DNA of 33,393 bases from Nitrososphaerota archaeon (GTDB lineage Archaea > Thermoproteota > Nitrososphaeria > Nitrososphaerales > Nitrosopumilaceae), in NCBI GenBank assembly GCA_029782475.1, contig JARPSM010000113.1:1-33393 (forward strand). The letters are read 5' to 3'. Numbering within the stretch: the stretch's first letter is position 1; every line of letters begins with the position of its first letter. The translations under genes and the position numbers were made by a program. Shown here in pieces: positions 14,154-27,775 of the stretch. The notes beneath the pieces were generated by a model. That model saw only the letters and a program-made list of their open reading frames with translations. It had not been told where the DNA came from and did no database searches.

Positions 14154-14495
14154 ATGAAACGAATTGAGGCAACGGTTCAAGCAACCAAAATTGGGGCAGT
14201 AACTGAAGCAATAAATGATATTGTTGGAGGATACACCATTCTGGAAGGTAAAGGCAGAGGTTCTGGAGCCAGACAAGAAATGAGATCTGGAAGAGGAACA
14301 GGTACAATTACTGCAGAATTTAACCATGTTGCAACTGTTAGTACAATTGTAGATGACTCAGACGTAGAGAAAATTTCAACAGCAATTGCTGATGCAGCTT
14401 TTACAGGTAAAGGCGGTGATGGAATTGTTATTGTATCCAGTGTGGATAGCGTTCTGAATATTGCATCTAAAAAGAGTGGTTCTGAAGCCCTCTAA
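14154..14495 (+). CDS. P-II family nitrogen signal protein
   Basis: 113-aa P-II (GlnB/GlnK) protein, a trimeric sensor of ATP/ADP and 2-oxoglutarate that controls ammonium transport and nitrogen metabolism. Family signature TGKGGDGIVIVSSVDSVLNI is clear near residues 84-103. The T-loop region (about 36-55, EGKGRGSGARQEMRSGRGTG) is Gly/Arg-rich and lacks the Tyr that bacteria uridylylate, so covalent control of that kind is not expected. The C-terminal Arg residues that contact ATP are replaced by Lys (ASKKSGSEAL). No amtB is adjacent in this window. Confidence 0.88.
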   Translation: MKRIEATVQATKIGAVTEAINDIVGGYTILEGKGRGSGARQEMRSGRGTGTITAEFNHVATVSTIVDDSDVEKISTAIADAAFTGKGGDGIVIVSSVDSVLNIASKKSGSEAL

Positions 14496-15043: not shown

Positions 15044-16003
15044 CTAAGAAGAGTACGCATCATTCATAATTTTTTCAAGTTCTTCAATATTTTTTGAAAT
15101 AGTAATTCTAGAACGCAGTTTGGAACCACCAGCCATACCTTTAGTAAATCTCATGGCTTGGCCCTTAATGTTTGCAAATTTTATCTTATATTGATTTGTA
15201 AGATGCAGATAATTAAAAAAAGAATCTAATCTATCTTTGAATGTATATTCTTTGTATGAATTTGTTTTCAAATAATCATTAATTTGTTCAAACAAAAATG
15301 GATTGCCCATTGCCCCCCTACCGATCATCACATAATCACAATTAGTACTATCAATCATGGTTTTTGCATCTTCAGGAGTAGTGATATCACCATTCCCAAC
15401 AATTGGAATGCTAGAAATTTCTTTTAATTCTTTAATTAGATCCCAATCAGCTGTTCCAGAATACCCTTGACTTACAGTTCGTGGATGAAATGTAATCATT
15501 TCGATCCCCTCATCTTCAGCAATTTCTGCAATATCGTAAAAGAGGAATCTACTTGCTTCTGTAACCCCTGAACGGATCTTAAGAGTCACAGGTTTTTTGA
15601 CTGCATTCACAAGTGTGTTAAAAATTTGTTGGGTTAGATTAACCTCTTGCAGTAATGCACCGCCTGCCATTTGTTGTGTAATGTGTGGTGCAGGACACCC
15701 CATGTTATAATCAATTATATCAAAATAAGGTTCTACAATTTTTGCAGCTTTTTCTAAAGCAGTAAGATCAGATCCAAATAATTGAATTGAAAGAGGACGT
15801 TCTTCATCAGAATATTCAATAAATTCTTGAATTGTTTTCATTCTTTCTTTGAGTTGGTTTTCTTTTGCTATAATACTATGAATATTTGTAAATTCTGTAA
15901 CAACTAATCCAGCACCCATTTTTTTACATTGTAAACGTAGTGCAGGATCACTTACTCCAGCCATCGGAGCTAAGAATGCTCTACTGGAAAATTTTGGAAG
16001 CAT
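15044..16003 (-). CDS. dus: tRNA-dihydrouridine synthase
   Basis: 319-aa FMN enzyme reducing specific uridines in the tRNA D-loop. TIM-barrel start FLAPMAGVSDPALR (10-23), catalytic Cys C103 in YNMGCPAP, LKIRSG (strand with conserved Lys/Arg), FHPRTVSQGYSGTADW, and the phosphate-binding GNGDITTPEDA near 200 followed by CDYVMIGRGAMGNP. The C-terminal ~75 residues are the helical tRNA-binding domain, so the length is normal. ATG 16003 with a TATA-like element 20-29 bases upstream. It shares its direction with the three repeat-protein genes but is separated from them by its own promoter. Confidence 0.93.
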   Translation of the reverse strand: MLPKFSSRAFLAPMAGVSDPALRLQCKKMGAGLVVTEFTNIHSIIAKENQLKERMKTIQEFIEYSDEERPLSIQLFGSDLTALEKAAKIVEPYFDIIDYNMGCPAPHITQQMAGGALLQEVNLTQQIFNTLVNAVKKPVTLKIRSGVTEASRFLFYDIAEIAEDEGIEMITFHPRTVSQGYSGTADWDLIKELKEISSIPIVGNGDITTPEDAKTMIDSTNCDYVMIGRGAMGNPFLFEQINDYLKTNSYKEYTFKDRLDSFFNYLHLTNQYKIKFANIKGQAMRFTKGMAGGSKLRSRITISKNIEELEKIMNDAYSS

Positions 16004-16062: not shown

Positions 16063-18234
16063 TTAATTATCAGGACAGCCATCTAAATCTCGGTCACCAT
16101 CATAATCCTCAGGATCTAATGGGCAAAGATCTTCATCATTGATGATATCATCTAAATCATCATCGTGTACAAATCTTTGTTGTTCCGGAGCAGTATCAGG
16201 ACAACCGTCATGATCATTATATTTATTCCAAGTTTCAGGATTAGTTGGACATGAATCAATTGCATCATAGTAGCCATCACCGTCAGAATCTACTCTTGTT
16301 GGCGTTGTAGATTCTGCTGCTAGTACGTCTGGGCAACCATCCCAGTCTAGATAGCCATTAAAGTTCTCTTGTACATCAATACATGAATCCCATCTATCAT
16401 CAATACCATCACCGTCAGAATCAGCAAAACTGTAAGATGGAACTACAGAACCAGTAGAGTCTGGGCAACCGTCTTCATCTTGATAATAATTGTAAGTTTC
16501 AGGTTCTAATGGACATGCATCAGAGACATCTACAATTCCATCTTGATCAGAATCAAGTGTGAAAACAAACTTGTCAGGACAGCCGTCTTTATCTTCAAAT
16601 CCATTTAATGTTTCAGGTTGAGCAGGACAAGAATCCAGATTGTCTGGGATACCATCACCGTCAGAATCAAATGCAAGTCTGTTATCAGGAATCAAATCAG
16701 GGCAACCGTCTTCATCGAGATATCTGTTGTAAGTTTCTCTAGTATCTGGACATTGATCCACATTATCAGTAATGCCGTCAAAATCAGAATCTCCAAATGA
16801 ATCATATGCTAAAGTGTCAGGGCAACCGTCTTCGTCTTGGAATTGATTATACCTCTCACCAATTGTTGGACAAGCATCAGAAATGTCTGGAATGCCATCA
16901 TGATCAATATCAGATAATGCAGATTTTGAGAATCCAGGAACATCAGGACAGCCGTCAGTGTCTAAGAAATTGTTATAATTTTCTGGTTCATCAATACATT
17001 GATCCCATCTATCATCAATACCATCTGCATCTGCATCTGGAAAGATGTAAGAAGATACAACAGTACCAGTTGAATCAGGGCAACCATCACCATCTTTAAA
17101 GAAATTATATGTTTCAGGTTCTGATGGACATGCATCATTAATATTTAAAATTCCATCCATGTCTGAATCTAATGTTGAATCATTACTATCAGGACAGCCA
17201 TCAGCATCCAATAATCCATTAAATGTTTCAGGTTGATTTGGACAATGATCTAAGTTATCAACAATTCCATCGCCGTCAGAATCTGAGGTGAATTTGTTAT
17301 CTGCAATAAGATCAGGGCAACCGTCCCAATCTAGATATTGATTGTAAGTTTCTTTAAAATATGGACATGTATCAAATTGATTCAAAATACCATCACCGTC
17401 AGAATCACCAGTAAATGTAAATTCAATTTCATCAGGGCAACCGTCTTCGTCTTGGAATTTGTTAAAGTTTTCACGTTCAAGTGGACATGCATCAACAGAA
17501 TCAAGAATACTATCATAATCAGAATCAATTAATCCATCAGAAGCAGAACCTAGGACATCAAAACATCCATCCCAATCTAGAAAACCATTATAATTTTCAG
17601 GTTCATCAATACATTGATCCCATCTATCATCAATACCATCACCGTCAGTATCTGGGAATGTGTATTGTGAATCAATAGAATCTACACTGTCAGGACAGCC
17701 GTCTTCATCGAGATATCTGTTGTAAGTTTCAGGTTCTAATGGACATGCATCTAGAGTATCAGAAACACCATCTTGATCAGCATCACTTAAAGTGGAAACA
17801 TCATCAGGACAGCCGTCTTTGTCATCAATGCCATTGAAAGTTTCTGGTTGGTTTGGACATAAATCCATAAAATCAGGGAAACCATCACCGTCAGAATCAG
17901 CAGTACCTTTTGTATCACCAGGTGACAAATCAGGACAGCCGTCTTCATCTTGGAATTTATTATAAGTTTCTTTTACAGTAGGGCAATTATCAAGATGATC
18001 TTGAATTCCATCATAATCAACATCATACCATGGAACAAAGTCTGCAGGACAGCCGTCAATATTGTTACCATACTGTGGATCATAGTCTTCTAAAAGATGA
18101 GGACAAAAATCAATATTGTTAGGAACGCCATCGCCATCAGAATCAATTTCATCAACAGCAAAAGCGCTACTTGGCACCATACCAATAGTTGATGTTAGTA
18201 AAAGTAAAAATCCTAAGAGATACTGTTTTTTCAT
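16063..18234 (-). CDS. secreted thrombospondin type 3-like repeat protein, paralogue 1
   Basis: 723 aa. Residues 1-26 are a signal peptide (MKKQYLLGFLLLL.., cleavage after AFA). The rest is 17 consecutive ~40-aa units, each DxDxDGxxDxxDxCP + xxPETYN + xxDxDGCPD, resembling calcium-binding TSP3 repeats with two Cys per unit. Unit order is N-cap, then three rounds of a five-unit block (units 2-6, 7-11, 12-16), then a C-cap. The third unit of each block has the distinctive DRWDxCID. One unit reads DGCFD, and one loop reads DYDSI, losing the Gly. No membrane anchor or sorting motif at the end. Presumably extracellular and Ca-stabilised; partner unknown. Own promoter. Confidence 0.88.
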   Translation of the reverse strand: MKKQYLLGFLLLLTSTIGMVPSSAFAVDEIDSDGDGVPNNIDFCPHLLEDYDPQYGNNIDGCPADFVPWYDVDYDGIQDHLDNCPTVKETYNKFQDEDGCPDLSPGDTKGTADSDGDGFPDFMDLCPNQPETFNGIDDKDGCPDDVSTLSDADQDGVSDTLDACPLEPETYNRYLDEDGCPDSVDSIDSQYTFPDTDGDGIDDRWDQCIDEPENYNGFLDWDGCFDVLGSASDGLIDSDYDSILDSVDACPLERENFNKFQDEDGCPDEIEFTFTGDSDGDGILNQFDTCPYFKETYNQYLDWDGCPDLIADNKFTSDSDGDGIVDNLDHCPNQPETFNGLLDADGCPDSNDSTLDSDMDGILNINDACPSEPETYNFFKDGDGCPDSTGTVVSSYIFPDADADGIDDRWDQCIDEPENYNNFLDTDGCPDVPGFSKSALSDIDHDGIPDISDACPTIGERYNQFQDEDGCPDTLAYDSFGDSDFDGITDNVDQCPDTRETYNRYLDEDGCPDLIPDNRLAFDSDGDGIPDNLDSCPAQPETLNGFEDKDGCPDKFVFTLDSDQDGIVDVSDACPLEPETYNYYQDEDGCPDSTGSVVPSYSFADSDGDGIDDRWDSCIDVQENFNGYLDWDGCPDVLAAESTTPTRVDSDGDGYYDAIDSCPTNPETWNKYNDHDGCPDTAPEQQRFVHDDDLDDIINDEDLCPLDPEDYDGDRDLDGCPDN

Positions 18235-18260
18235 TTCTTATGATTCAGCTATTATCAAGT

Positions 18261-18270
18261 ATTTATTAAG
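18261..18270 (-). promoter_or_regulatory. TATA-like box for repeat-protein paralogue 1
   Basis: CTTAATAAAT on the minus strand, 27-36 bases before ATG 18234. It suggests that paralogue 1 is transcribed separately from the two genes upstream. Confidence 0.4.
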
Positions 18271-18313
18271 TCTCACGTTGAAGTGATTCTTCAAAAATAG
18301 AAATCAAAAAAGC

Positions 18314-20485
18314 CTATGGATCAGGACAGCCATCTAAATCTCGGTCACCATCATAATCCTCAGGATCTAATGGACAAAGATCTTCATCATTGATGATATC
18401 ATCTAAATCATCATCGTGTACAAATCTTTGTTGTTCTGGAGCAGTATCAGGGCAACCATCCCAGTCTAGATATTTATTCCAAGTTTCTGAGCTTGTTGGG
18501 CATGAATCAACGGCATCAGGATACCCATCACCGTCAGAATCTGCATACATAGGAGTAGTAGATTCGGCTCCAGGAACGTCAGGACAGCCATCGTGATCTA
18601 GATAATCATTATAATTTTCAGGTTCATCAATACATGAATCCCATCTATCTTCAATACCATCACCGTCAGTATCTGGGAATGTGTATTGTGAATCAATTGC
18701 TTGAGTAGTGTCAGGACAGCCGTCACTGTCAAGATATCTGTTGTAAGTTTCAGGTTCTAATGGACATGCATCTAAAATATCAATAATTCCATCCATATCT
18801 GAATCAAGATGAGATGATTCTCTATCAGGACAACCGTCTTCGTCTTGGAATCCATTGAATGTTTCTAGTTGAGTTGGACATAAATCTAAAATATCTGGAA
18901 TACCGTCGCCGTCAGAATCAGATGTAAATTTATTATCTGCAATATAATCAGGACAACCATCTTCATCGAGATATCTGTTGTAACTTTCTTTGGTAAGAGG
19001 ACATTGATCCAAGTCATCATAAATCCCATCACCATCAGAATCACCAATCGTTTGATAATCAACACTATCAGGACATCCATCATCATCTTGGAATCCATTG
19101 TATCTTTCAGCTAATGTTGGACATTTGTCTAAATGATCTGCAAGACCGTCATAATCTGCATCAAGCATATCACCATATGATGTACCAGGAACGTCAGGAC
19201 AACCATCGTGATCTAGATAATCATTATAATTTTCAGGCTCATCAATACATGAATCCCATCTATCTTCAATACCATCACCGTCAGTATCTGGGAATGTGTA
19301 TTGTGAATCAATTGCTTGAGCAGTGTCAGGACAGCCGTCTTCATCAAGATATCTGTTGTAAGTTTCAGATTCTAATGGACATGCATCAATTTCATCTGGA
19401 ATTCCATCCATATCAGTATCATTAGTTAAAATATAATTATCAGGACAACCGTCTTTATCTAAAATATCATTATACGTTTCTGGTTGATTTGGACAATGAT
19501 CTAAGTTATCAATAATTCCATCACCGTCAGTATCAAATGCAAATCGATTATCTGCAACATAATCAGGACATCCATCTTCGTCTTGGAATTTATTAAAAGT
19601 TTCAGGACTAAATGGGCAGGAATCATTATCATCTGCAATGCCATCGCCGTCAGCATCACCAGTTATCATTAATTGTAAGACATCTGGACATCCATCTTCG
19701 TCTTGGAATTTATTATAATTTTCTCGATCTAAAGGACAATCATCGACATCATCTGGAATCCCATCATAATCAGCATCAAGCATATCACCATATGATGTAC
19801 CAGGAACGTCAGGACAGCCATCGTGATCTAGATAATCATTATAATTTTCAGGCTCATCAATACATGAATCCCACCTATCTTCAATACCATCACCGTCAGT
19901 ATCTGGGAATGTGTATTGTGAATCAATTGCTTGAGCAGTGTCAGGACAGCCGTCACTGTCAAGATATCTGTTGTAAGTTTCAGGTTCTAATGGACATGCA
20001 TCTAAAGTATCAGAAAGACCATCTTGATCTGTATCTCTTAATTGGATATCGCCGTCAGGACAACCATCTTTGTCATCAATACCATTGAATGTTTCTGGTT
20101 GATTTGGACATAAATCCATAAAATCAGGGAAACCATCACCATCAGAATCATAAATACCTTGTGCATCAACAGGTGACAAATCAGGACAACCATCTTCATC
20201 TTGGAATTTATTGTAAGTTTCTTTTACAGTAGGACAATCATCAATGTGGTCCTCAACACCATCATAATCAGCATCATACCATGGAACAAAGTCTGCAGGA
20301 CAACCGTCAATATTGTTACCATATTGTGGATCATAGTCTTCTAAAAGATGAGGGCATTGATCTAGATTATTTGGAACACCATCACCATCAGAATCAATTG
20401 CCTCAACAGCAAAAACACTACTTGGCACCATGCCAATAGTTGATGTTAGTAAAAGTAAAAATCCTAAAAGATATTGTTTTTTCAT
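18314..20485 (-). CDS. secreted thrombospondin type 3-like repeat protein, paralogue 2
   Basis: 723 aa, the same length and unit order as paralogue 1: signal peptide (1-26, differing by one residue), N-cap, three five-unit blocks, C-cap, 17 units. Block length is exactly 205 aa (38+44+42+40+41), visible as a 615-bp period in DNA. The second and third units of the blocks are almost identical between copies, whereas other units differ, indicating recent homogenisation. All acidic loops and paired Cys are intact. It starts 15 bases after the stop of paralogue 3, so the two are probably one transcript; GGAG at 20498-20501 may help initiation. Predicted extracellular; no catalytic residues. Confidence 0.88.
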   Translation of the reverse strand: MKKQYLLGFLLLLTSTIGMVPSSVFAVEAIDSDGDGVPNNLDQCPHLLEDYDPQYGNNIDGCPADFVPWYDADYDGVEDHIDDCPTVKETYNKFQDEDGCPDLSPVDAQGIYDSDGDGFPDFMDLCPNQPETFNGIDDKDGCPDGDIQLRDTDQDGLSDTLDACPLEPETYNRYLDSDGCPDTAQAIDSQYTFPDTDGDGIEDRWDSCIDEPENYNDYLDHDGCPDVPGTSYGDMLDADYDGIPDDVDDCPLDRENYNKFQDEDGCPDVLQLMITGDADGDGIADDNDSCPFSPETFNKFQDEDGCPDYVADNRFAFDTDGDGIIDNLDHCPNQPETYNDILDKDGCPDNYILTNDTDMDGIPDEIDACPLESETYNRYLDEDGCPDTAQAIDSQYTFPDTDGDGIEDRWDSCIDEPENYNDYLDHDGCPDVPGTSYGDMLDADYDGLADHLDKCPTLAERYNGFQDDDGCPDSVDYQTIGDSDGDGIYDDLDQCPLTKESYNRYLDEDGCPDYIADNKFTSDSDGDGIPDILDLCPTQLETFNGFQDEDGCPDRESSHLDSDMDGIIDILDACPLEPETYNRYLDSDGCPDTTQAIDSQYTFPDTDGDGIEDRWDSCIDEPENYNDYLDHDGCPDVPGAESTTPMYADSDGDGYPDAVDSCPTSSETWNKYLDWDGCPDTAPEQQRFVHDDDLDDIINDEDLCPLDPEDYDGDRDLDGCPDP
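18571..18773 (-). repeat. near-identical intragenic block, copy 1 (615-bp period)
   Basis: About 203 bp covering the end of a B unit and all of a C unit in paralogue 2. It differs from the copies starting at 19186 and 19801 at only a handful of positions by eye. Confidence 0.75.
19186..19388 (-). repeat. near-identical intragenic block, copy 2
   Basis: Exactly 615 bp from copy 1. It has slightly more differences towards its right end (the start of the neighbouring B unit). Confidence 0.75.
19801..20003 (-). repeat. near-identical intragenic block, copy 3
   Basis: Exactly 615 bp from copy 2. By eye it differs from copy 1 at about three positions over 203 bp, including synonymous changes. Confidence 0.75.
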
Positions 20486-20497
20486 TCTAAGATACTA

Positions 20498-20501
20498 CTC
20501 C
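20498..20501 (-). promoter_or_regulatory. possible ribosome-binding site for paralogue 2
   Basis: GGAG on the minus strand overlaps the stop of paralogue 3 and lies 12 bases before ATG 20485. Spacing is a little long, but it is the only candidate in the 15-base gap. Confidence 0.3.
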
Positions 20502-22939
20502 TAAGGGTCAGGACATCCATCGGCATCTCTATCACCATCATAATCCTCAGGTTCTAGAGGACACATGTCATTTTCATTGATAATATCATCTAAATCAGCA
20601 TCGTGTTTGTATCTTGATTGTTCTGGTACAATATCTGGACAACCGTCATGGTCATTATACTTGTTCCAAGATTCTTTTTCATTTGGACACAAATCAATAT
20701 CATCGTTTATTCCATCTTCATCAGTATCAATTATTACATTTCCAATTGGCAATGTGTCAGGACAACCGTCATAATCAGCATATTTGTTCCACACTTCAGA
20801 TTGTGTTGGACACATATCCATCACGTCTGGAACACCATCACCATCAGAATCTGGTTGAGTGTTATCAGTATCTGGACAGCCATCATCGTCTTGGAATCCA
20901 TTATAATTTTCAGCCACTAGAGGACAATCATCGTATACATCATCAATTCCATCATTATCAGAATCAACTACAAATGATGATTCGGAAACAGAATCAGGAC
21001 AGCCATCATCGTCTTGGAATTGATTGTAAGTTTCTTTAGCAGTTGGGCATGCATCAATTCCATCTGGAATTCCATCCACATCACGGTCATTCTTTAAGAT
21101 GTAATTATCAGGACAGCCGTCTAAATCTAAAATACCATTATACGTTTCTGGTTGGTTTGGACAATGATCATTATAATCATTAATTCCATCACCATCAGAA
21201 TCTGGAGTATCTTTGTTATCTGCCACATTATCAGGACAGCCGTCTAAATCTTTGAATTTATTATAAGTTTCTGGAACTAGTGGGCATTCATCTAGAGCAT
21301 CAACAATTCCATCATAGTCAGTATCTAATTCAGTAATGAAATCAGGAGAATCAGGACATCCATCTTCATCTTGGAATCCATTATATCGTTCTCTATCAAG
21401 AGGACATTGATCCACTGAATCTAAAATACCATCAAAGTCAGAATCTGCACCTGTTGGGTCATCTGGACAACCGTCATGATCTAGATAACGATTCCATGTT
21501 TCAGGTGTTGAAGGGCATTGATCTAGAGCATCTCTAATTCCATCCCCATCAGAATCTAAAACAGCAACATCAGGACAACCGTCTTGATCTAGATAACCAT
21601 TTACGGTTTCTGCAACTAGAGGACATTTATCATTCAAATCAGCAATACCATCACCATCATAATCTTGACCAGATAATCCATCTACACCGTCAGGACAACC
21701 ATCAGTGTCTTCAAATCCATTGTAAATTTCTTTAGCAGTTGGACATTGATCTAGATTATCTGGAATTCCATCCAAGTCTCTATCTGCAGAATTATTAGTA
21801 TCAGGACAACCGTCTCTATCAAATACACCATTGAAAGTTTCTGGTTGGTTTGGACATAAATCGTTAAAGTCATTGATTCCATCACCATCAGAATCTGGAA
21901 CACCATTATCAGTACCTACAAAATCAGGACAACCGTCTTCATCTTGGAATTTATTGTAAGTTTCTTGTACTTCAGGACATTGATCAATGCTGTTAGGAAT
22001 ACCATCACCATCAGAATCTACATCACTCGAATATGGAGGGATGTCTGGACAACCGTCATCGTCTTGGAATCCATTGTATCTTTCTGGATCTAATGGACAT
22101 ACATCATCAACATCCATAATCCTATCACCATCTGCATCATTTTGTGTTCCATCAAATGATGGAAGTGAATCCGGACAACCGTCATAATCTGCAAATCTAT
22201 TGAAAGTTTCAGGTTGGTTTGGACAAATATCAAATTGATCAGCGATACCATCATCGTCTTTATCATCAAATGAAGTATCTAATGCAATGTCAGGACAACC
22301 GTCTGTATCTCTATAACCATTATACACTTCTGGTTCAGTTGGACATAAATCGATTTTATCTTGAATGCCATCATTATCAGTATCTATAAAATTAAAATCA
22401 TTAACAGAATCAGGACAACCGTCATCGTCTTGGAATCTATTGTAAGTTTCAGCACTTAGTGGACATTCATCTAAATAATCTAGAACACCGTCCAAGTCTC
22501 TGTCACCTGAACCATAGGAATCAGGACAGCCGTCTATGTCATCAATGCCATTGAATGTTTCTGGTTGGTTTGGACAATTATCTATTAAATCAATAATACC
22601 ATCACCATCAGAATCTGCTGCACCACCATCTCCACTTCCCGGAAGATTATCAGGACAACCGTCTTCATCTTGGAATTTATTGTATTGTTCTTTGAGATTT
22701 GGACATTGATCAATATGATCTTCTATACCATCATAATCTTCATCATACCATGGAACAAAATTTGATGGACATCCATCTAGGGTTCCTTCATAGTCTTCTT
22801 GTAAATTAGGACATGCATCTATAGAATCATCAATACCGTCATTGTCTAAGTCATCAGCGGCAAAAACAGGATTAATAGGCATACTGGTCAAAGTAGCGAC
22901 AAGTAAGAATAGGAATGATACAGTGTGTATTTTTTTCAA
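20501..22939 (-). CDS. secreted thrombospondin type 3-like repeat protein, paralogue 3
   Basis: 812 aa, TTG start, first gene of the trio. A signal peptide of about 27 residues (MKKIHTVSFLFLL..., ending VFA) precedes 20 repeat units of ~40 aa. Its plan is N-cap, three six-unit blocks (units 2-7, 8-13, 14-19), C-cap; so it also has three super-repeats but with one extra unit per block relative to the paralogues, and it lacks the DRWDxCID unit type. The C-cap is nearly the same as in the other two. Two Cys per unit and acidic DxDxDG loops throughout predict a stiff, disulfide-linked, Ca-binding rod. No anchor seen, so secreted or held by another surface component. Confidence 0.88.
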   Translation of the reverse strand: MKKIHTVSFLFLLVATLTSMPINPVFAADDLDNDGIDDSIDACPNLQEDYEGTLDGCPSNFVPWYDEDYDGIEDHIDQCPNLKEQYNKFQDEDGCPDNLPGSGDGGAADSDGDGIIDLIDNCPNQPETFNGIDDIDGCPDSYGSGDRDLDGVLDYLDECPLSAETYNRFQDDDGCPDSVNDFNFIDTDNDGIQDKIDLCPTEPEVYNGYRDTDGCPDIALDTSFDDKDDDGIADQFDICPNQPETFNRFADYDGCPDSLPSFDGTQNDADGDRIMDVDDVCPLDPERYNGFQDDDGCPDIPPYSSDVDSDGDGIPNSIDQCPEVQETYNKFQDEDGCPDFVGTDNGVPDSDGDGINDFNDLCPNQPETFNGVFDRDGCPDTNNSADRDLDGIPDNLDQCPTAKEIYNGFEDTDGCPDGVDGLSGQDYDGDGIADLNDKCPLVAETVNGYLDQDGCPDVAVLDSDGDGIRDALDQCPSTPETWNRYLDHDGCPDDPTGADSDFDGILDSVDQCPLDRERYNGFQDEDGCPDSPDFITELDTDYDGIVDALDECPLVPETYNKFKDLDGCPDNVADNKDTPDSDGDGINDYNDHCPNQPETYNGILDLDGCPDNYILKNDRDVDGIPDGIDACPTAKETYNQFQDDDGCPDSVSESSFVVDSDNDGIDDVYDDCPLVAENYNGFQDDDGCPDTDNTQPDSDGDGVPDVMDMCPTQSEVWNKYADYDGCPDTLPIGNVIIDTDEDGINDDIDLCPNEKESWNKYNDHDGCPDIVPEQSRYKHDADLDDIINENDMCPLEPEDYDGDRDADGCPDP

Positions 22940-23077: not shown

Positions 23078-24106
23078 ATGAGTTGTTCGGGTGAAACAGT
23101 TGAAGAAGATGAGCAATTACTCCAAATCAGACCTGTAATTACGGCACAATTAAAAAAAGCAAAGTATGGTGTAGCAGATCATTCAACTGTAGGACTTTGT
23201 CATTGGACAAAAAAATCATTCAAGCATGAAGGCAGTTGTTACAAACACAAGTTTTATGGGATTTCAACTCATAGATGTATGGAATTTTCTCCTGCTGGCA
23301 TGTATTGTGAAAATCGTTGTGTGTATTGTTGGAGACCAATGGAATTTTATGATTCAATGCAAATGAAACCAGAACAAGTTGCAGAACCAGAACAAATTCT
23401 AACAAAATTAATGGCTGAACGAAAAAAATTGATCAATGGATTTTATGGCGATTCAAGAAACGATAAACAAAGATTAGATGAATCTTTATTGCCTGCACAT
23501 TATGCTATTTCACTTTCTGGAGAACCAACAATGTATCCTAAACTACCAGAATTAATTAAATACCTAAAAACATTTGAAGCAACAAAATCAATTTTTCTTG
23601 TAACTAATGGACAAGAGCCAGATATGATTCAAAAATTACAAGATGAAGATGCATTGCCAACACAGTTGTATCTGTCAACAAATGCTGCAGATTATGAGTC
23701 ATTTATGAAAATAAACAAGCCAAGATACGATGATTCATGGGAAAGATGGAATAGAACACTTGACATGTTAAAAGATTTGAAAACAAGAACAGTGTTAAGA
23801 ATTACATTAATCAGAGATCATAATGATCAAAAAGAATCAATTCCAGCATTTGCAGAAATGTTTAGAAAAGCGAGTCCGCACTTTATCGAAATTAAATCAT
23901 ATATGCATATTGGACGCTCAACAAATAGATTAGAATATGAAAATATGTTAGAAATGGAAGAAATAAAAAAGTATAGTGAAGAAATTGCAAAGCAAAGTAA
24001 AATATTTTCAATAATGGATGAGAGTATTGTTTCAAGAATCTCGATATTACAAAACAATGAACGATGTATTGATCGTTTTATCCCTACTTATGTAAATACC
24101 ATTTAG
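23078..24106 (+). CDS. taw1: tRNA 4-demethylwyosine synthase Taw1 (TYW1)
   Basis: 342-aa radical-SAM enzyme that condenses pyruvate with m1G37 of tRNA-Phe to the tricyclic wyosine precursor. The radical-SAM cluster is CENRCVYC with C77, C81, C84. An additional N-terminal trio C41, C54, C67 has the 13-residue spacing known for the second [4Fe-4S] cluster of Taw1. LSGEPTMYPKLPELI (SAM-binding GEP motif) and the C-terminal KSYMHIGRSTNRL segment match the family. ATG 23078 chosen from the usual family length. Its 3' end overlaps the convergent ITPase gene by 23 bases. Confidence 0.95.
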   Translation: MSCSGETVEEDEQLLQIRPVITAQLKKAKYGVADHSTVGLCHWTKKSFKHEGSCYKHKFYGISTHRCMEFSPAGMYCENRCVYCWRPMEFYDSMQMKPEQVAEPEQILTKLMAERKKLINGFYGDSRNDKQRLDESLLPAHYAISLSGEPTMYPKLPELIKYLKTFEATKSIFLVTNGQEPDMIQKLQDEDALPTQLYLSTNAADYESFMKINKPRYDDSWERWNRTLDMLKDLKTRTVLRITLIRDHNDQKESIPAFAEMFRKASPHFIEIKSYMHIGRSTNRLEYENMLEMEEIKKYSEEIAKQSKIFSIMDESIVSRISILQNNERCIDRFIPTYVNTI

Positions 24107-24632
24107 AAAATTTTCTTAATGCTTTGTATCTATGTGATAATTCATTTTTATTATTTAATTCTGCAAATGTTTTCTTAGAATTATTTGGAATGAATATCGG
24201 ATCATATCCCCAACCTTTACCTTTTTGAGTCTTAGATATTCTTCCATTTAATTTGCCTTCAAATGATTGCAAAATTGTTTTGTCACAATAAGTAATAATT
24301 GAAACAAATTTTGCTTTTCTGTTATTTTTTAATAAATTTAAAATTCCTTTATTCCCAATAGTTTTGAAAACATATGATGAATACGGACCTGGAAATCCAT
24401 CAACTGAATCAATGAATAAACCATCATCTTCAATAATGATAGGTTTTTTGAATATAGAATATGCATTCTTAGCTTTTGCCATTGCAATAGTATTGAGTGA
24501 ATGTGATTGGATTTCTTCTAAATTAGATTTTAAAAATCCAAGATCAATTCCCAGAGAATCCAAAATGGACTTTGCTTCTTGGTATTTGTGACTATTAGAG
24601 GAGACAAAAAATAGATCAAATGACTTGTGCAT
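24084..24632 (-). CDS. XTP/dITP pyrophosphatase (RdgB/HAM1 family)
   Basis: About 182 aa; a house-cleaning enzyme hydrolysing dITP/XTP and so keeping deaminated purines out of nucleic acids. Motifs: FVSSNSHKYQEAKSIL (SxNxxK-type nucleotide-binding start), IIEDDGLFIDSVDGFPGPYSS (catalytic Asp region), GRISKTQKGKGWGYDPIF and NELSHRYKAL (SHR motif). I prefer ATG 24632 because family proteins begin a few residues before the SSN motif; an in-frame ATG at 24650 is possible. The gene overlaps the end of bud32 by 17 bases and the 3' end of taw1 by 23. Probably co-transcribed with bud32. Confidence 0.9.
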   Translation of the reverse strand: MHKSFDLFFVSSNSHKYQEAKSILDSLGIDLGFLKSNLEEIQSHSLNTIAMAKAKNAYSIFKKPIIIEDDGLFIDSVDGFPGPYSSYVFKTIGNKGILNLLKNNRKAKFVSIITYCDKTILQSFEGKLNGRISKTQKGKGWGYDPIFIPNNSKKTFAELNNKNELSHRYKALRKFSKWYLHK

Positions 24633-25242
24633 ATCTTCCACGACTTTCAATTTCCAAGACTAGTTTAGTTATTTTAGAGTAATAGGAATGACCAACAATG
24701 GACTTGTACCCACTAAGGAAATTTTTCCATGAGGATAACATGATTTTAGCATGAGCACTGTTAAGAATTTCTTTAATTAGTCTCAAGTCAACAGCATGAT
24801 CTTCAGGTTTTATTGAAGTTTGAGATAATCCAAAATCAATTACAAATATAGTATTTTTAAATAAAATAAAATTTGAAGTTGTTAAATCACCATGCATTAC
24901 TCCATTCTTATGTAATGTACCTACCAATTTTCCAATATCCTTAGAGACTTTAATAATTTTTAATTCAGACAAATCATGTACTGGTTTACCAGGGATTTCT
25001 TGCATAGTTATTGACGTTTCATCTAAATTTACAAAGTAAACTAGTGGTGTATGTATTCCAAATGATTTTACAAGTGAGAGCATTTGAGATTCTTTGATAG
25101 TTCTTTGTTTACGAATTTTTGAATCAAGTAAAGAATTTCTATAAGTTTTGATTTTTCTAATTTTCAATATTGCCTTTGAATTTTGCCATTTAGTTTGATA
25201 CAGATCTGCTTCAGCACCTTTTTTGACTAATTTCATTAACAT
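24616..25242 (-). CDS. bud32: KEOPS kinase/ATPase Bud32
   Basis: 208-aa atypical small protein kinase of the PIPKE/Bud32 type. N-lobe GAEADLYQT (9-17), K27 in AILKIRK, the helix with KQRTIKESQML, catalytic HGDLTTSN (117-124) and DFGLS (136-140). It acts in KEOPS as an ATPase supporting Kae1 in t6A37 synthesis. In many euryarchaea Bud32 is fused to Kae1; here it is free, with Kae1 a separate gene on the same strand about 350 bases upstream. The first ATG was chosen; ATG 25236 is an alternative. Overlaps the ITPase gene. Confidence 0.92.
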   Translation of the reverse strand: MLMKLVKKGAEADLYQTKWQNSKAILKIRKIKTYRNSLLDSKIRKQRTIKESQMLSLVKSFGIHTPLVYFVNLDETSITMQEIPGKPVHDLSELKIIKVSKDIGKLVGTLHKNGVMHGDLTTSNFILFKNTIFVIDFGLSQTSIKPEDHAVDLRLIKEILNSAHAKIMLSSWKNFLSGYKSIVGHSYYSKITKLVLEIESRGRYAQVI

Positions 25243-25273
25243 TATAACCAGAAGGATTCAATAAAAATTAATC

Positions 25274-25597
25274 ATGGATGATGGAGAAAAACGCATCAAG
25301 CAAGAAGATTGTAGTGAGGATAAGTTAGGAGCAGGGATTTTAACATTAACAAGCAAGAGATTGGCATTTGATAAAACTAATGCAAGGATAATGGATTTTT
25401 CTAAACATTTCGGAGATACAGTTTTAGATATTTCATTAGATAAAGTAACAAAGACATGGAAAGAAGGCTTATTGATGAAAAAGGTATGTTTTACAGCAAA
25501 GACAGATGACGGAGAGCAAACTTTCAAGTTTGGAGTATTCAACACTAAAAGTTGGGTTAAAGATATAGAACAAACTATTAATGAAAACAAGAATTAG
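25274..25597 (+). CDS. PH/GRAM-like small protein between kae1 and bud32
   Basis: 107 aa with a pleckstrin-homology-like pattern: GILTLTSKRLAFDK (typical GxLxLTxxRLxF strand pair of bacterial/archaeal PH-like and GRAM proteins), ISLDKVTKTWKEGLL, then VCFTAKTDDGEQTFKFGV and a C-terminal helix (TKSWVKDIEQTINEN). No signal peptide. It is the only plus-strand gene inside an otherwise minus-strand run: divergent from bud32 (31 bases apart) and tail-to-tail with kae1, overlapping its stop by 4 bases. Role unknown; association with KEOPS genes may be coincidence. Confidence 0.65.
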   Translation: MDDGEKRIKQEDCSEDKLGAGILTLTSKRLAFDKTNARIMDFSKHFGDTVLDISLDKVTKTWKEGLLMKKVCFTAKTDDGEQTFKFGVFNTKSWVKDIEQTINENKN

Positions 25598-26577
25598 TAT
25601 TCAACTTTTACAGTATCTAATCTCCAAGATTGAGTAACAAATGTATCTTTTAATTTTACACCAGATTTTATCTGAGATTCAAGTAATCCAGTCCAACAAA
25701 TTTGACTTCCGCAATCTCCAGCATATTTTAATGGAACAACAAAAAATTTACAACCATGTCTTTTACAAACATCTTTTAGCATTTCAGATAATCGTTTGTT
25801 AGCAGCAACTCCTCCAACAATCATTAATTCTTTTTTTCTTGTAAATGATAGAGCGCGTTCTACTGCCTCACTTATCATAGCAAATGCAGTTTCTTGAAGT
25901 GAGTAGCAAGCATCAACCTTATTTTTTGTTGCAGCAGATTTTGTTGCAGATAACAATCCAGAAAAAGATACATCATTGCCTTTTACAGAATATGGCAAAG
26001 TGACATAATTTGAGGATGTGGATGCTAACTCTTCAATATTTTTTCCACATGGAGATGCAAACCCAATTGAACGTCCAAATTGATCTAATAATTGGCCCAG
26101 AGTGATGTCCAATGTCTCTCCAAATACTCTCCATTGCTTATTTAGAAATGCCAAAAGCATGGTATGCCCCCCTGAAACTAAAAGTACAAGAGGATTAGCA
26201 GAACCAGTTAGTAATTTTCCTAATTCGATATGTCCAATTGCATGATTTACTGGATATATTGGAATTTTGTAATATGAAGAAAGAGATCTAGCAACTACTG
26301 CACCTACACGTAAACATGGACCCAGCCCCGGACCTGCAGCATATGAAACAATATCCAAGTCTTTGACAGTTGCATTTGCTTCTTGAAGACAATCAGAAAG
26401 TACCTGGGAACTATTCTCAATATGATGTCGTGATGCCTCTCTAGGATGAATTCCCTCTCCTTCTTCAGGGCGATAGATTTTACGTATGTCTGAAAGAATT
26501 TTTCCTTTTTTTCCACGTTTTTCAATTATTGCACAAGAAAATGTGTGAGCAGTACTCTCTATTCCCAATCCCAACAT
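25594..26577 (-). CDS. kae1: KEOPS threonylcarbamoyl transferase Kae1 (TsaD homologue)
   Basis: About 327 aa; transfers the threonylcarbamoyl group to A37 of ANN-decoding tRNAs. ASKHA-type features: start MLGLGIESTAHTFSCAII, metal-binding His in NHAIGHIE (H112, H116 with N111), LVSGGHTMLL, and VSFSGLLSATKSA. ATG 26577 is chosen rather than 26604 because the family begins at the LGLGIESTAH segment and only one base then separates it from the ychF stop, suggesting an operon order ychF-kae1. No Bud32 domain is fused at the C terminus; the protein ends normally. Confidence 0.95.
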   Translation of the reverse strand: MLGLGIESTAHTFSCAIIEKRGKKGKILSDIRKIYRPEEGEGIHPREASRHHIENSSQVLSDCLQEANATVKDLDIVSYAAGPGLGPCLRVGAVVARSLSSYYKIPIYPVNHAIGHIELGKLLTGSANPLVLLVSGGHTMLLAFLNKQWRVFGETLDITLGQLLDQFGRSIGFASPCGKNIEELASTSSNYVTLPYSVKGNDVSFSGLLSATKSAATKNKVDACYSLQETAFAMISEAVERALSFTRKKELMIVGGVAANKRLSEMLKDVCKRHGCKFFVVPLKYAGDCGSQICWTGLLESQIKSGVKLKDTFVTQSWRLDTVKVEY

Positions 26578-26578
26578 A

Positions 26579-27775
26579 TCAACCACGACTTGATGTGGAA
26601 ACAATTTTGATCACATCGCCATTTTTGAGTTTTTGATCTCCACTAATCCTTTGTTTTGTTTTACAATCTATTGCATGCAAAAACCCCTTTGCAATATCTG
26701 CATGAATTAATCCTGCCAGATCTTTAGCAGTAGAATCTTGTGGAACTAATTTTGTATCAGGTAAAATTACTCCATCTTTGCTAGTAAGTTTAGTTTCATC
26801 TTCTACAGGATACACAACGATATATTTTAGAGAATCAAAAACAGCAGTATTTAGAATTTTTTGAATTCCTGTTGAATCAATTTTTGAGAAAACTGATTTT
26901 ACTAAATCAAGTGCTTTTTGTTGCGGTGGAGGGATGTCTTTTCCTTCAATAGGAGTAAATCCTTTATCTCCAGAAGAATAATTTACAATTCCAGCTTTTG
27001 ATGCTTTTCGTAAAAGTAATTCAGTTTCTGCACTACATGGAATTACATTATCAGGAATTTTCTTAATTATATCCAAGTCCTGGCAAAGGTCTGCCTTGTT
27101 TGCTGCAATGATCATCGGTTTTGTGTTTTTTCTTAATTCTTTGACAAAAGTTTCAATATCTTCGTCTACCCATTCTTTTGGATTTTTAGCCATGAATCCT
27201 AATTTTTGAAGAATTTCTTGAACTTGAAAATCTTTAATTCCTAATCCAGAAAATCTTTTTGCAATACCATCAGTTAGTTTTGCACGTTTTTGATCTATTT
27301 CTCGGGTAATTTTATCCCATTCTCTTTTTAAAATATCTGCAAACCATTGATCAAATTCATCTTGTACAAAAGCTACATCTTCTAATGGATCATGAGTTCC
27401 AACTGGAACAGATTGTCCTTGAATATCTGTTGTTCCAGCAATATCAACAACATGAATTAAAACTTCAGCTTGTCGCGCATCATCAAGAAATTGATTTCCC
27501 AATCCTTTACCTTCATGAGCTCCAGGTACTAATCCTGCAACATCAATGAGTTTAACAGGAATAAAACGTGTACCATTTACACATAATTCATTTTCATGTT
27601 TAATTTCAAAATGTTTGCAAGCACAATCTGCTTTTACAAACGCTACCCCCACATTAGGTTCAATTGTTGTAAAAGGGAAATTTCCTGTTGCAACAGGTGT
27701 TTCAGTTGCAGCTGAGAAGAATGTAGATTTACCAACATTTGCCTTTCCTAGTAAACCAATTTGCAATACTGTCAA
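26579..27775 (-). CDS. YchF/OLA1-type GTPase with TGS domain
   Basis: 398-aa Obg-family P-loop NTPase. G1 GKANVGKST (10-18), G2 region FPFTTIEPNVG, G3 DVAGLVPGAHEGKGLGNQF, G4 NKADL, plus a central coiled-coil insertion (IDQKRAKLTDGIAKRF) and a C-terminal TGS domain near 310-398 ending in KNGDVIKIVSTSSRG. YchF/OLA1 proteins associate with ribosomes and often hydrolyse ATP; nucleotide preference here is unverified. TTG start at 27775 places the G1 motif ten residues from the N-terminus as in homologues. One base separates it from kae1, suggesting co-transcription. Confidence 0.93.
   Translation of the reverse strand: MTVLQIGLLGKANVGKSTFFSAATETPVATGNFPFTTIEPNVGVAFVKADCACKHFEIKHENELCVNGTRFIPVKLIDVAGLVPGAHEGKGLGNQFLDDARQAEVLIHVVDIAGTTDIQGQSVPVGTHDPLEDVAFVQDEFDQWFADILKREWDKITREIDQKRAKLTDGIAKRFSGLGIKDFQVQEILQKLGFMAKNPKEWVDEDIETFVKELRKNTKPMIIAANKADLCQDLDIIKKIPDNVIPCSAETELLLRKASKAGIVNYSSGDKGFTPIEGKDIPPPQQKALDLVKSVFSKIDSTGIQKILNTAVFDSLKYIVVYPVEDETKLTSKDGVILPDTKLVPQDSTAKDLAGLIHADIAKGFLHAIDCKTKQRISGDQKLKNGDVIKIVSTSSRG

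Follow-up and report, generated by a model that had tools for sequence, protein, structure and literature searches.

Secreted-type TSP3 arrays of Nitrosopumilaceae are organised in whole blocks of five or six units, usually three, between two caps

Type 3 thrombospondin (TSP3) repeats are known from animals and bacteria. Thrombospondins and COMP are defined by TSP3 repeats followed by a lectin-like C-terminal domain, and the animal repeats adjoin EGF and lectin-like domains. Ammonia-oxidising archaea, too, are reported to have TSP3-repeat proteins, with a strong response to H2O2. In the relevant passages of one study, two such proteins became 15 to 40 times more abundant when Nitrosopumilus cultures were given H2O2; S-layer proteins increased as well, and some small aggregates were seen (PMC6593220). 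These published proteomics data fit a surface role for the arrays described below. A passage of PMC7265257 refers to an extracellular, thrombospondin-like structure of deep-sea alpha AOA that has five calcium-binding domains. A search of the main text of PMC12153357 for the term thrombospondin returned nothing. Finally, the authors of the N. maritimus S-layer structure, in the passages that concern charge and calcium, postulate that this layer is negatively charged and traps ammonium, and they suggest a part for it in cell shape that depends on calcium (PMC11153153). The organisation of TSP3 arrays in whole blocks is a plan that we did not meet in the open-licence literature searched.

The window, the whole stretch of 33,393 nt that was analysed, comes from an archaeon whose nearest named relatives are Nitrosopumilus. 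It contains three adjoining TSP3-like array genes, all on the minus strand at 16063-22939 and transcribed in the order P3, P2, P1 (Table 1). A preliminary description had seen here three secreted-type arrays of 17 (P1), 17 (P2) and 20 (P3) units. We find the same unit counts in the same open reading frames, and each protein begins with a hydrophobic signal sequence, judged by eye. All three belong to the Pfam family TSP_3 (PF02412), with E-values of 4.2e-29, 1.8e-29 and 1.4e-37 and scores of 100.4, 101.5 and 127.5 bits for P1, P2 and P3, against a curated cut-off of 25. All 24 TSP_3 matches in the host genome (E up to 0.001) map to the contig of the window, at the array locus. No other Pfam family rises above its cut-off in P1, P2 or P3. 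The scan gave neither an OmpA domain nor a lectin-like C-terminal domain, and the final unit reaches the stop codon. Nor did the Pfam scan or inspection by eye reveal an anchor domain, a hydrophobic tail or a sorting signal, the termini being DGCPDN or DGCPDP. The preliminary description had likewise seen no anchor.

Table 1. Positions in the window of the three array genes and their parts
Feature	Position	Strand	Remarks
P3	20501..22939	-	812 aa, 20 units, TTG start, apparently secreted; transcribed first; period 6, p=0.001
P3 signal peptide (by eye) and N-cap unit 1	22766..22939	-	
P3 six-unit block 1, units 2-7	22046..22765	-	FVPWYDxDYDG motif opens unit 2; from unit alignment to P1/P2
P3 six-unit block 2, units 8-13	21353..22045	-	
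P3 six-unit block 3, units 14-19	20636..21352	-	
P3 C-cap unit 20 (PEQSRYKHDADLDDIIN...)	20504..20635	-	closest of the P3 units to its P1/P2 counterpart; cross-family profile identity 0.71
P2	18314..20485	-	723 aa, 17 units, apparently secreted; 15 nt downstream of P3; period 5, p=0.001
P2 signal peptide (by eye) and N-cap unit 1	20297..20485	-	
P2 first block, units 2-5, types a b c d	19811..20296	-	
P2 second block, units 6-10, types e a b c d	19196..19810	-	205 codons
P2 third block, units 11-15, types e a b c d	18581..19195	-	205 codons
P2 unit 16 (special) and C-cap unit 17 (PEQQRFVHDDDLDDIIN...)	18317..18580	-	
P1	16063..18234	-	723 aa, 17 units, apparently secreted; 79 nt downstream of P2; period 5, p=0.0045
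P1 signal peptide (by eye) and N-cap unit 1	18046..18234	-	
P1 first block, units 2-5	17560..18045	-	
P1 second block, units 6-10	16945..17559	-	205 codons
P1 third block, units 11-15	16330..16944	-	205 codons
P1 unit 16 and C-cap unit 17	16066..16329	-	

The mature proteins are 22.7-24.0% Asp and carry net charges of -170 (P1), -182 (P2) and -195 (P3). They contain 34, 34 and 40 cysteines, respectively, which amounts to two per unit. Across the aligned relatives, a strict ligand-plus-cysteine motif is present in 1101 of 1224 P1/P2 units and 938 of 1020 P3 units; by construction, this motif misses units in which the two cysteines are spaced by other than 15 residues, such as the N-cap. The arrangement C-x15-C itself occurs 1147 times in P1/P2 units and 966 times in P3 units, with one unit per array spaced differently. 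From their similarity to 5wtl and COMP, we infer that the units bind calcium and close an intra-unit disulfide.

The surroundings of the arrays are conserved. A Dus gene lies 59 nt downstream of P1 on the same strand, and the arrays sit amid translation and tRNA-modification genes (window positions 23078-27775 and 15044-16003), with radical SAM/wyosine, Ham1, a small protein kinase (which we take to be Bud32-like), TsaD/Kae1 and a YGR210-like GTPase on one side and Dus on the other. The second gene beyond the arrays encodes a PII-like nitrogen regulatory protein (14154-14495), which stays nearby in many relatives, and the gene order around the arrays recurs in many relatives too. Among 140 archaeal loci with arrays, a count in which some loci are one contig fetched twice, both flanking genes are present in 56, and in 56/56 the arrays lie between Dus and a gene that we call TYW1-like (our own label; its Pfam domains are radical SAM and wyosine-formation). 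The remaining loci have the TYW1-like flank only (53), Dus only (27) or neither (4).

We cut each array into units at the cysteine pairs and compared the mean identity of units k apart with that obtained in 2000 shuffles of the interior unit order. Unit identity peaks at lag 5 in P1 (0.63 versus 0.50-0.55 at other lags; permutation p=0.0045) and P2 (0.70 versus 0.51-0.56; p=0.001), and at lag 6 in P3 (0.61 versus 0.51-0.56; p=0.001). The five- and six-unit periodicity that had been read from the translations thus exceeds that of shuffled order. At the DNA level, P1 and P2 each contain three copies of a 300-nt repeat at a spacing of exactly 615 nt, or 205 codons; copies in P2 match the reference at 83% and 90% identity. 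Tandem Repeats Finder, whose longest period of 500 is below the 615-nt block, returned one short row. Linker lengths follow the same periods in the aligned relatives. In P1/P2-type proteins, linkers are of equal length in 472/648 comparisons at lag 5 versus 232/4392 at other lags. For the P3 type, the signal at lag 6 is weaker (232/561 versus 510/4080).

It had further been proposed that each protein divides into an N-cap, three equal blocks and a C-cap. The periods of five and six bear this out, but the division is less regular than that. Unit 16 of P1 and P2 is not of a block type, its nearest units being 3 and 13 and not 6 and 11, which gives these proteins the strict pattern cap - abcd - eabcd - eabcd - special unit - cap. 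Four of the six positions (2/8/14, 3/9/15, 4/10/16 and 7/13) account for most of the six-unit period in P3, where units 5, 11 and 17 are not mutually nearest.

P2 has matches in 49 of 60 genomes of the genus; the other 11, which include 6 of the 38 genomes at least 90% complete and at most 5% contaminated, have none, so the array proteins may be dispensable. P3 matches are found in 78 of 151 family genomes, representing 14 of 22 genera. The P1/P2 alignment has matches in 96 of 250 class genomes and, among the matches listed, all are in the family except three. These three are weak (E of 8.2e-11, 2.3e-7 and 5.4e-5 in G248, G257 and G311) and come from family f3 of the same order.

To compare block numbers, we started from 308 frames with at least 4 DGC motifs. 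With bacterial loci set aside, 301 archaeal frames remained; removal of 58 that were open or contained N and of 47 exact duplicates left 196. Deduplication was by exact sequence only, and relatives are not independent events. Judged by motif, 141 of the 196 have both caps, and 55 do not (21 with the N-cap only, 6 with the C-cap only, 28 with neither). Arrays were assigned to the five- or six-type by their spacing patterns, not by unit number. The best lag is 5 in 94, 6 in 77 and another value in 10 of the 181 arrays of at least 10 units, a set that may include a few bacterial or broken frames. Of the 78 arrays called 17-unit/lag-5, 77 have a permutation p of 0.05 or less, as do 61 of the 62 called 20-unit/lag-6. 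A single vector of 16 spacings, identical to the residue, is common to 49 of the former, and one vector is likewise common to 37 of the latter.

With both caps present, 79 of 80 five-type arrays consist of 2+5n units and 59 of 61 six-type arrays of 2+6n, so that 138 of 141 complete arrays equal two units plus whole blocks. The formula also fits 10 of 11 five-type and 6 of 8 six-type arrays when the commonest sizes, 17 and 20, are left out. Five-type arrays have 7 (1 array), 11 (1), 12 (1), 17 (69), 22 (7) or 27 (1) units; six-type arrays have 8 (4), 14 (1), 19 (2), 20 (53) or 26 (1). The number of blocks, n, is usually 3 and ranges from 1 to 5; it is 6 in one array that fails the cap filter. 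Of the three misfits, two 19-unit P3-type arrays (L089 and L192) show a single spacing of 62 or 65 where others show 42 and 40, and the 11-unit array of L106, which has a gap of 82 near its end, has apparently had one unit lost or left unrecognised.

The 55 arrays lacking one or both caps are a mixed group. They include arrays of 17, 20, 22, 26, 27 and 32 units with variant cap letters, among them L138 (32 units, or 2+5x6), L190 (27) and L083 and L197 (26), together with unperiodic arrays, broken pieces (e.g. at L098, L106, L110 and L113) and misfits of 13, 15, 18, 19 (L090), 24 and 25 units. By genus, with loci linked to genera by hand and some loci unmapped, arrays of 17 or 20 units occur in g1, g4, g12, g14, g15 and g18; arrays of either kind contain four blocks in g22; a six-type array of 14 units is present in g12; and g11 and g2 have six-type arrays of 24, 25 and 15 units that fall outside the formula. 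In g11, two 14-unit arrays (L199:11823-13677 and L200:11537-13427) appear, from their spacing, to join a five-type start to a six-type end, and may be chimeras of the two types. The 8-unit arrays consist of the caps and a single six-unit block and lie beside longer arrays (L068:10937-11963, L080:903-1911, L081:8574-9600 and L139:1004-2054). Misassembly could account for some of the block numbers seen in short-read genomes; L059 (G021), a single contig, carries arrays of 14 and 27 units.

The preliminary description had supposed a conserved threefold plan across paralogues of different block size. The plan of whole blocks is indeed common to such paralogues in several genera, and unit numbers are for the most part not arbitrary, the exceptions being an unperiodic lineage and the g2 and g11 arrays just mentioned. 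Threefold is the commonest arrangement, not a rule. "Whole blocks between caps, usually three" holds, and "always threefold" is wrong; strict selection for three blocks is ruled out by the other block numbers among arrays with both caps.

In relatives with small genomes (assemblies of 0.7-1.4 Mb, or 1.2-1.4 Mb when at least 95% complete), another kind of array occupies the same locus. These arrays, at L152-L156 and L158-L161, usually have 17 units and stand in place of the three genes, with one listed array wherever both flanks are present. Seven of them, taken as a profile of 17 units, have near-constant spacing among themselves and show no period, the lag means being 0.50-0.55 versus 0.634 at lag 5 in P1/P2. 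They do not have the usual C-cap motif, and their final unit resembles unit 16 of P1/P2 (0.67). L158 (p=0.33), one of the 78 arrays called 17-unit/lag-5, belongs to this lineage and was excluded from the P1/P2 alignment, which keeps 72 of 73 selected rows. Since the unperiodic arrays keep near-constant spacing, register can be held without blocks, and conservation of spacing does not depend on them.

In the aligned relatives, the ends and the middle of the arrays are conserved in different ways. On average, 96.6% of P1/P2 linkers and 96.7% of P3 linkers are of modal length, the lowest values being 89% and 71%. Past the first two residues, interior linkers of P1/P2 share 0.19-0.50 identity and those of P3 0.25-0.55, apart from a single linker at 0.78. 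For the linkers at the two ends, first and last, identity is 0.90 and 0.84 in P1/P2 and 0.92 and 0.87 in P3. Comparison of the P3 and P1/P2 unit profiles gives the highest identity for the last unit (0.71), followed by unit 2 (0.70) and unit 3 (0.67), with unit 1 at 0.49. What conservation the ends show thus lies in unit 2, in the first and last linkers and in the final unit, and not in the N-cap unit 1. With regard to a triplication that P3 and P1/P2 might share, P3 units outside the ends resemble their counterparts in each of the three P1/P2 blocks to about the same degree.

Ends kept by sequence and a middle kept by length form the pattern expected of a spacer with two specific ends. We lean towards the view that the three proteins are spacer rods, stiffened by calcium, that belong to the cell-surface matrix and bind partners at their ends. 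Each TSP3-like unit, by similarity to the TSP3 repeats of OmpA proteins and COMP, would form a calcium-filled, disulfide-closed knot, and a chain of such units would make a stiff, disulfide-stapled, polyanionic rod in the cell-surface matrix or in the space under the S-layer. The N-terminal end (unit 1 together with FVPWYD, which opens unit 2) and the C-terminal end (PEQ.R..HD.DLD..IN and the last unit) would both bind partners, while the middle would set spacing and register, the block being the step by which rod length is gained or lost. This proposal builds on the signal peptides seen by eye, the ligand and cysteine pattern, linker lengths, whole-block changes, the locus and the conservation of the ends. 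Calcium binding, rod shape, location, partners and selection (and not history alone) for three blocks are what we infer from them. AlphaFold2 models were poor, with mean pLDDT of 60.4 for P2 (72-row alignment) and 59.4 for P3 (51 rows) and pTM of 0.17 for both; a fold search with the P2 model found TSP3 structures at TM-scores of 0.04-0.12, which lends local support only. Points against the proposal are the unperiodic 17-unit lineage at this locus, the low identity of unit 1 beside that of block unit 3, and the genus genomes in which P2 has no match.

Alternatively, the arrays might be relics of duplication, in which an ancestral block of five or six units was tandemly duplicated and the plan persists by in-register recombination and ordinary purifying selection on each unit, with length itself functionless. 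Whole-block steps from 1 to 6 are in keeping with such a history, as is the 615-nt repeat of P2 with its copies 83% and 90% identical to the reference. Within a protein, P1/P2 blocks share 0.681 identity, versus 0.629 for different blocks of different proteins, which also suits a relic. So does the tree of 58 P1/P2-type proteins, in part. There, the middle genes and the last genes of Nitrosopumilus mostly fall into two clades, of 18 and 19 rows; the gene pairs of several other lineages, and that of L131, cluster by species, and the labels need 9 changes. This species-wise pairing suggests conversion or repeated duplication of the 17-unit genes, through which the 17-unit plan would have survived.

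Other observations fit a relic less well. In P3, blocks show hardly any homogenisation (0.606 identity within versus 0.596 between proteins), yet n is 3 in 53 of 61 six-type arrays with both caps. Spacing is kept while most of the interior linker sequence has been lost. When P3 is aligned with P1/P2 by unit, P3 units 6, 12 and 19 are left over, i.e. once per block, so the six-unit block looks like a five-unit block plus one. The plan is old, since blocks are nearest to those at the same position in other proteins. For P1/P2 this is so in 202 of 216 cases (the nearest is in the same protein in 13 and at another position of another protein in 1), and for P3 in 153 of 153. Recent expansion can therefore be rejected, because blocks are mostly nearest to the same position elsewhere and not to their neighbours. 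Taken together, we regard a functionless relic as rather doubtful. In-register recombination would nonetheless also produce whole-block numbers, so quantisation alone is no proof of selection. As a target of selection, register has better support than total length, for which the near residue-exact linkers with drifting sequence and the dominance of three blocks in P3 argue indirectly.

A more specific form of the spacer idea is that of a molecular ruler. Here, the five- or six-unit block would be one structural period, e.g. one turn of a calcium-stabilised superhelix. Residue-exact linkers would hold the period, the reach between fixed binding ends would be set by whole turns, and the pitch of P3 would differ from that of P1/P2 by one unit per turn. 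We offer this as a tentative possibility, with the odds against it. Also unlikely, in our view, is that the arrays are adhesin or aggregation filaments, released or displayed under stress, that join cells or particles through their ends. The conserved ends would suit such filaments, as would the 15 to 40 fold rise of TSP3-repeat proteins and the small aggregates seen with H2O2, although renewal of damaged proteins could also explain that response, according to the same passages (PMC6593220). A possible adhesion role is mentioned, too, for the thrombospondin-like structure of deep-sea alpha AOA in the passage that cites it (PMC7265257). Against adhesion, no domain other than TSP3 that might bind a partner rises above the Pfam cut-off. 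A polyanionic cation reservoir, which holds calcium or attracts ammonium between S-layer and membrane and in which charge matters and not register, seems improbable, in that it would need neither residue-exact linker lengths nor conserved ends, and 73 of the 151 family genomes (some of them incomplete) have no P3 match, although ammonia oxidation is regarded as typical of the Nitrosopumilaceae. Its appeal lies in the high Asp content and net charge of each molecule and in the negatively charged ammonium trap postulated, in the passage noted above, for the N. maritimus S-layer (PMC11153153).

If the proteins are indeed spacer rods, those of one to six blocks make up a natural series in which the functional role of repeat-protein length is directly testable. 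The search for binding partners should then turn to the two ends, in the poorly known cell envelope of these highly abundant marine organisms.

Like the arrays described here, the OmpA-family TSP3 protein of Capnocytophaga gingivalis (PDB 5wtl) is built from calcium-motif units of the same kind; it is the best match in the fold search and matches in sequence with E of 4e-4. Six bacterial relatives were scanned, of which five have an OmpA domain and four a TSP_3 match. The five OmpA relatives contain 4 or 5 DGC motifs, whereas complete archaeal arrays have 7 to 32 units with caps, and the window proteins have no OmpA domain. The type 3 repeats of thrombospondin and COMP (PDB 3fby, 1yo8 and 2rhp) consist of the same chain of DxDxDG...C units; they too are fold-search matches, and 3fby matches in sequence with E of 9e-8. 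Unlike in those proteins, the array here makes up the whole mature protein and is arranged in blocks. A passage of PMC6593220 cites a Myxococcus thrombospondin-like locus (Zhang 2007) for its sequence similarity and its link with the cell surface matrix. The TT3R proteins of Nitrosopumilus are TSP3-like repeat proteins from the same genus, for which the main-text passages of PMC6593220 describe no block plan, caps or locus. Likened to the window proteins by description and not by sequence, they are probably members of the same array family.
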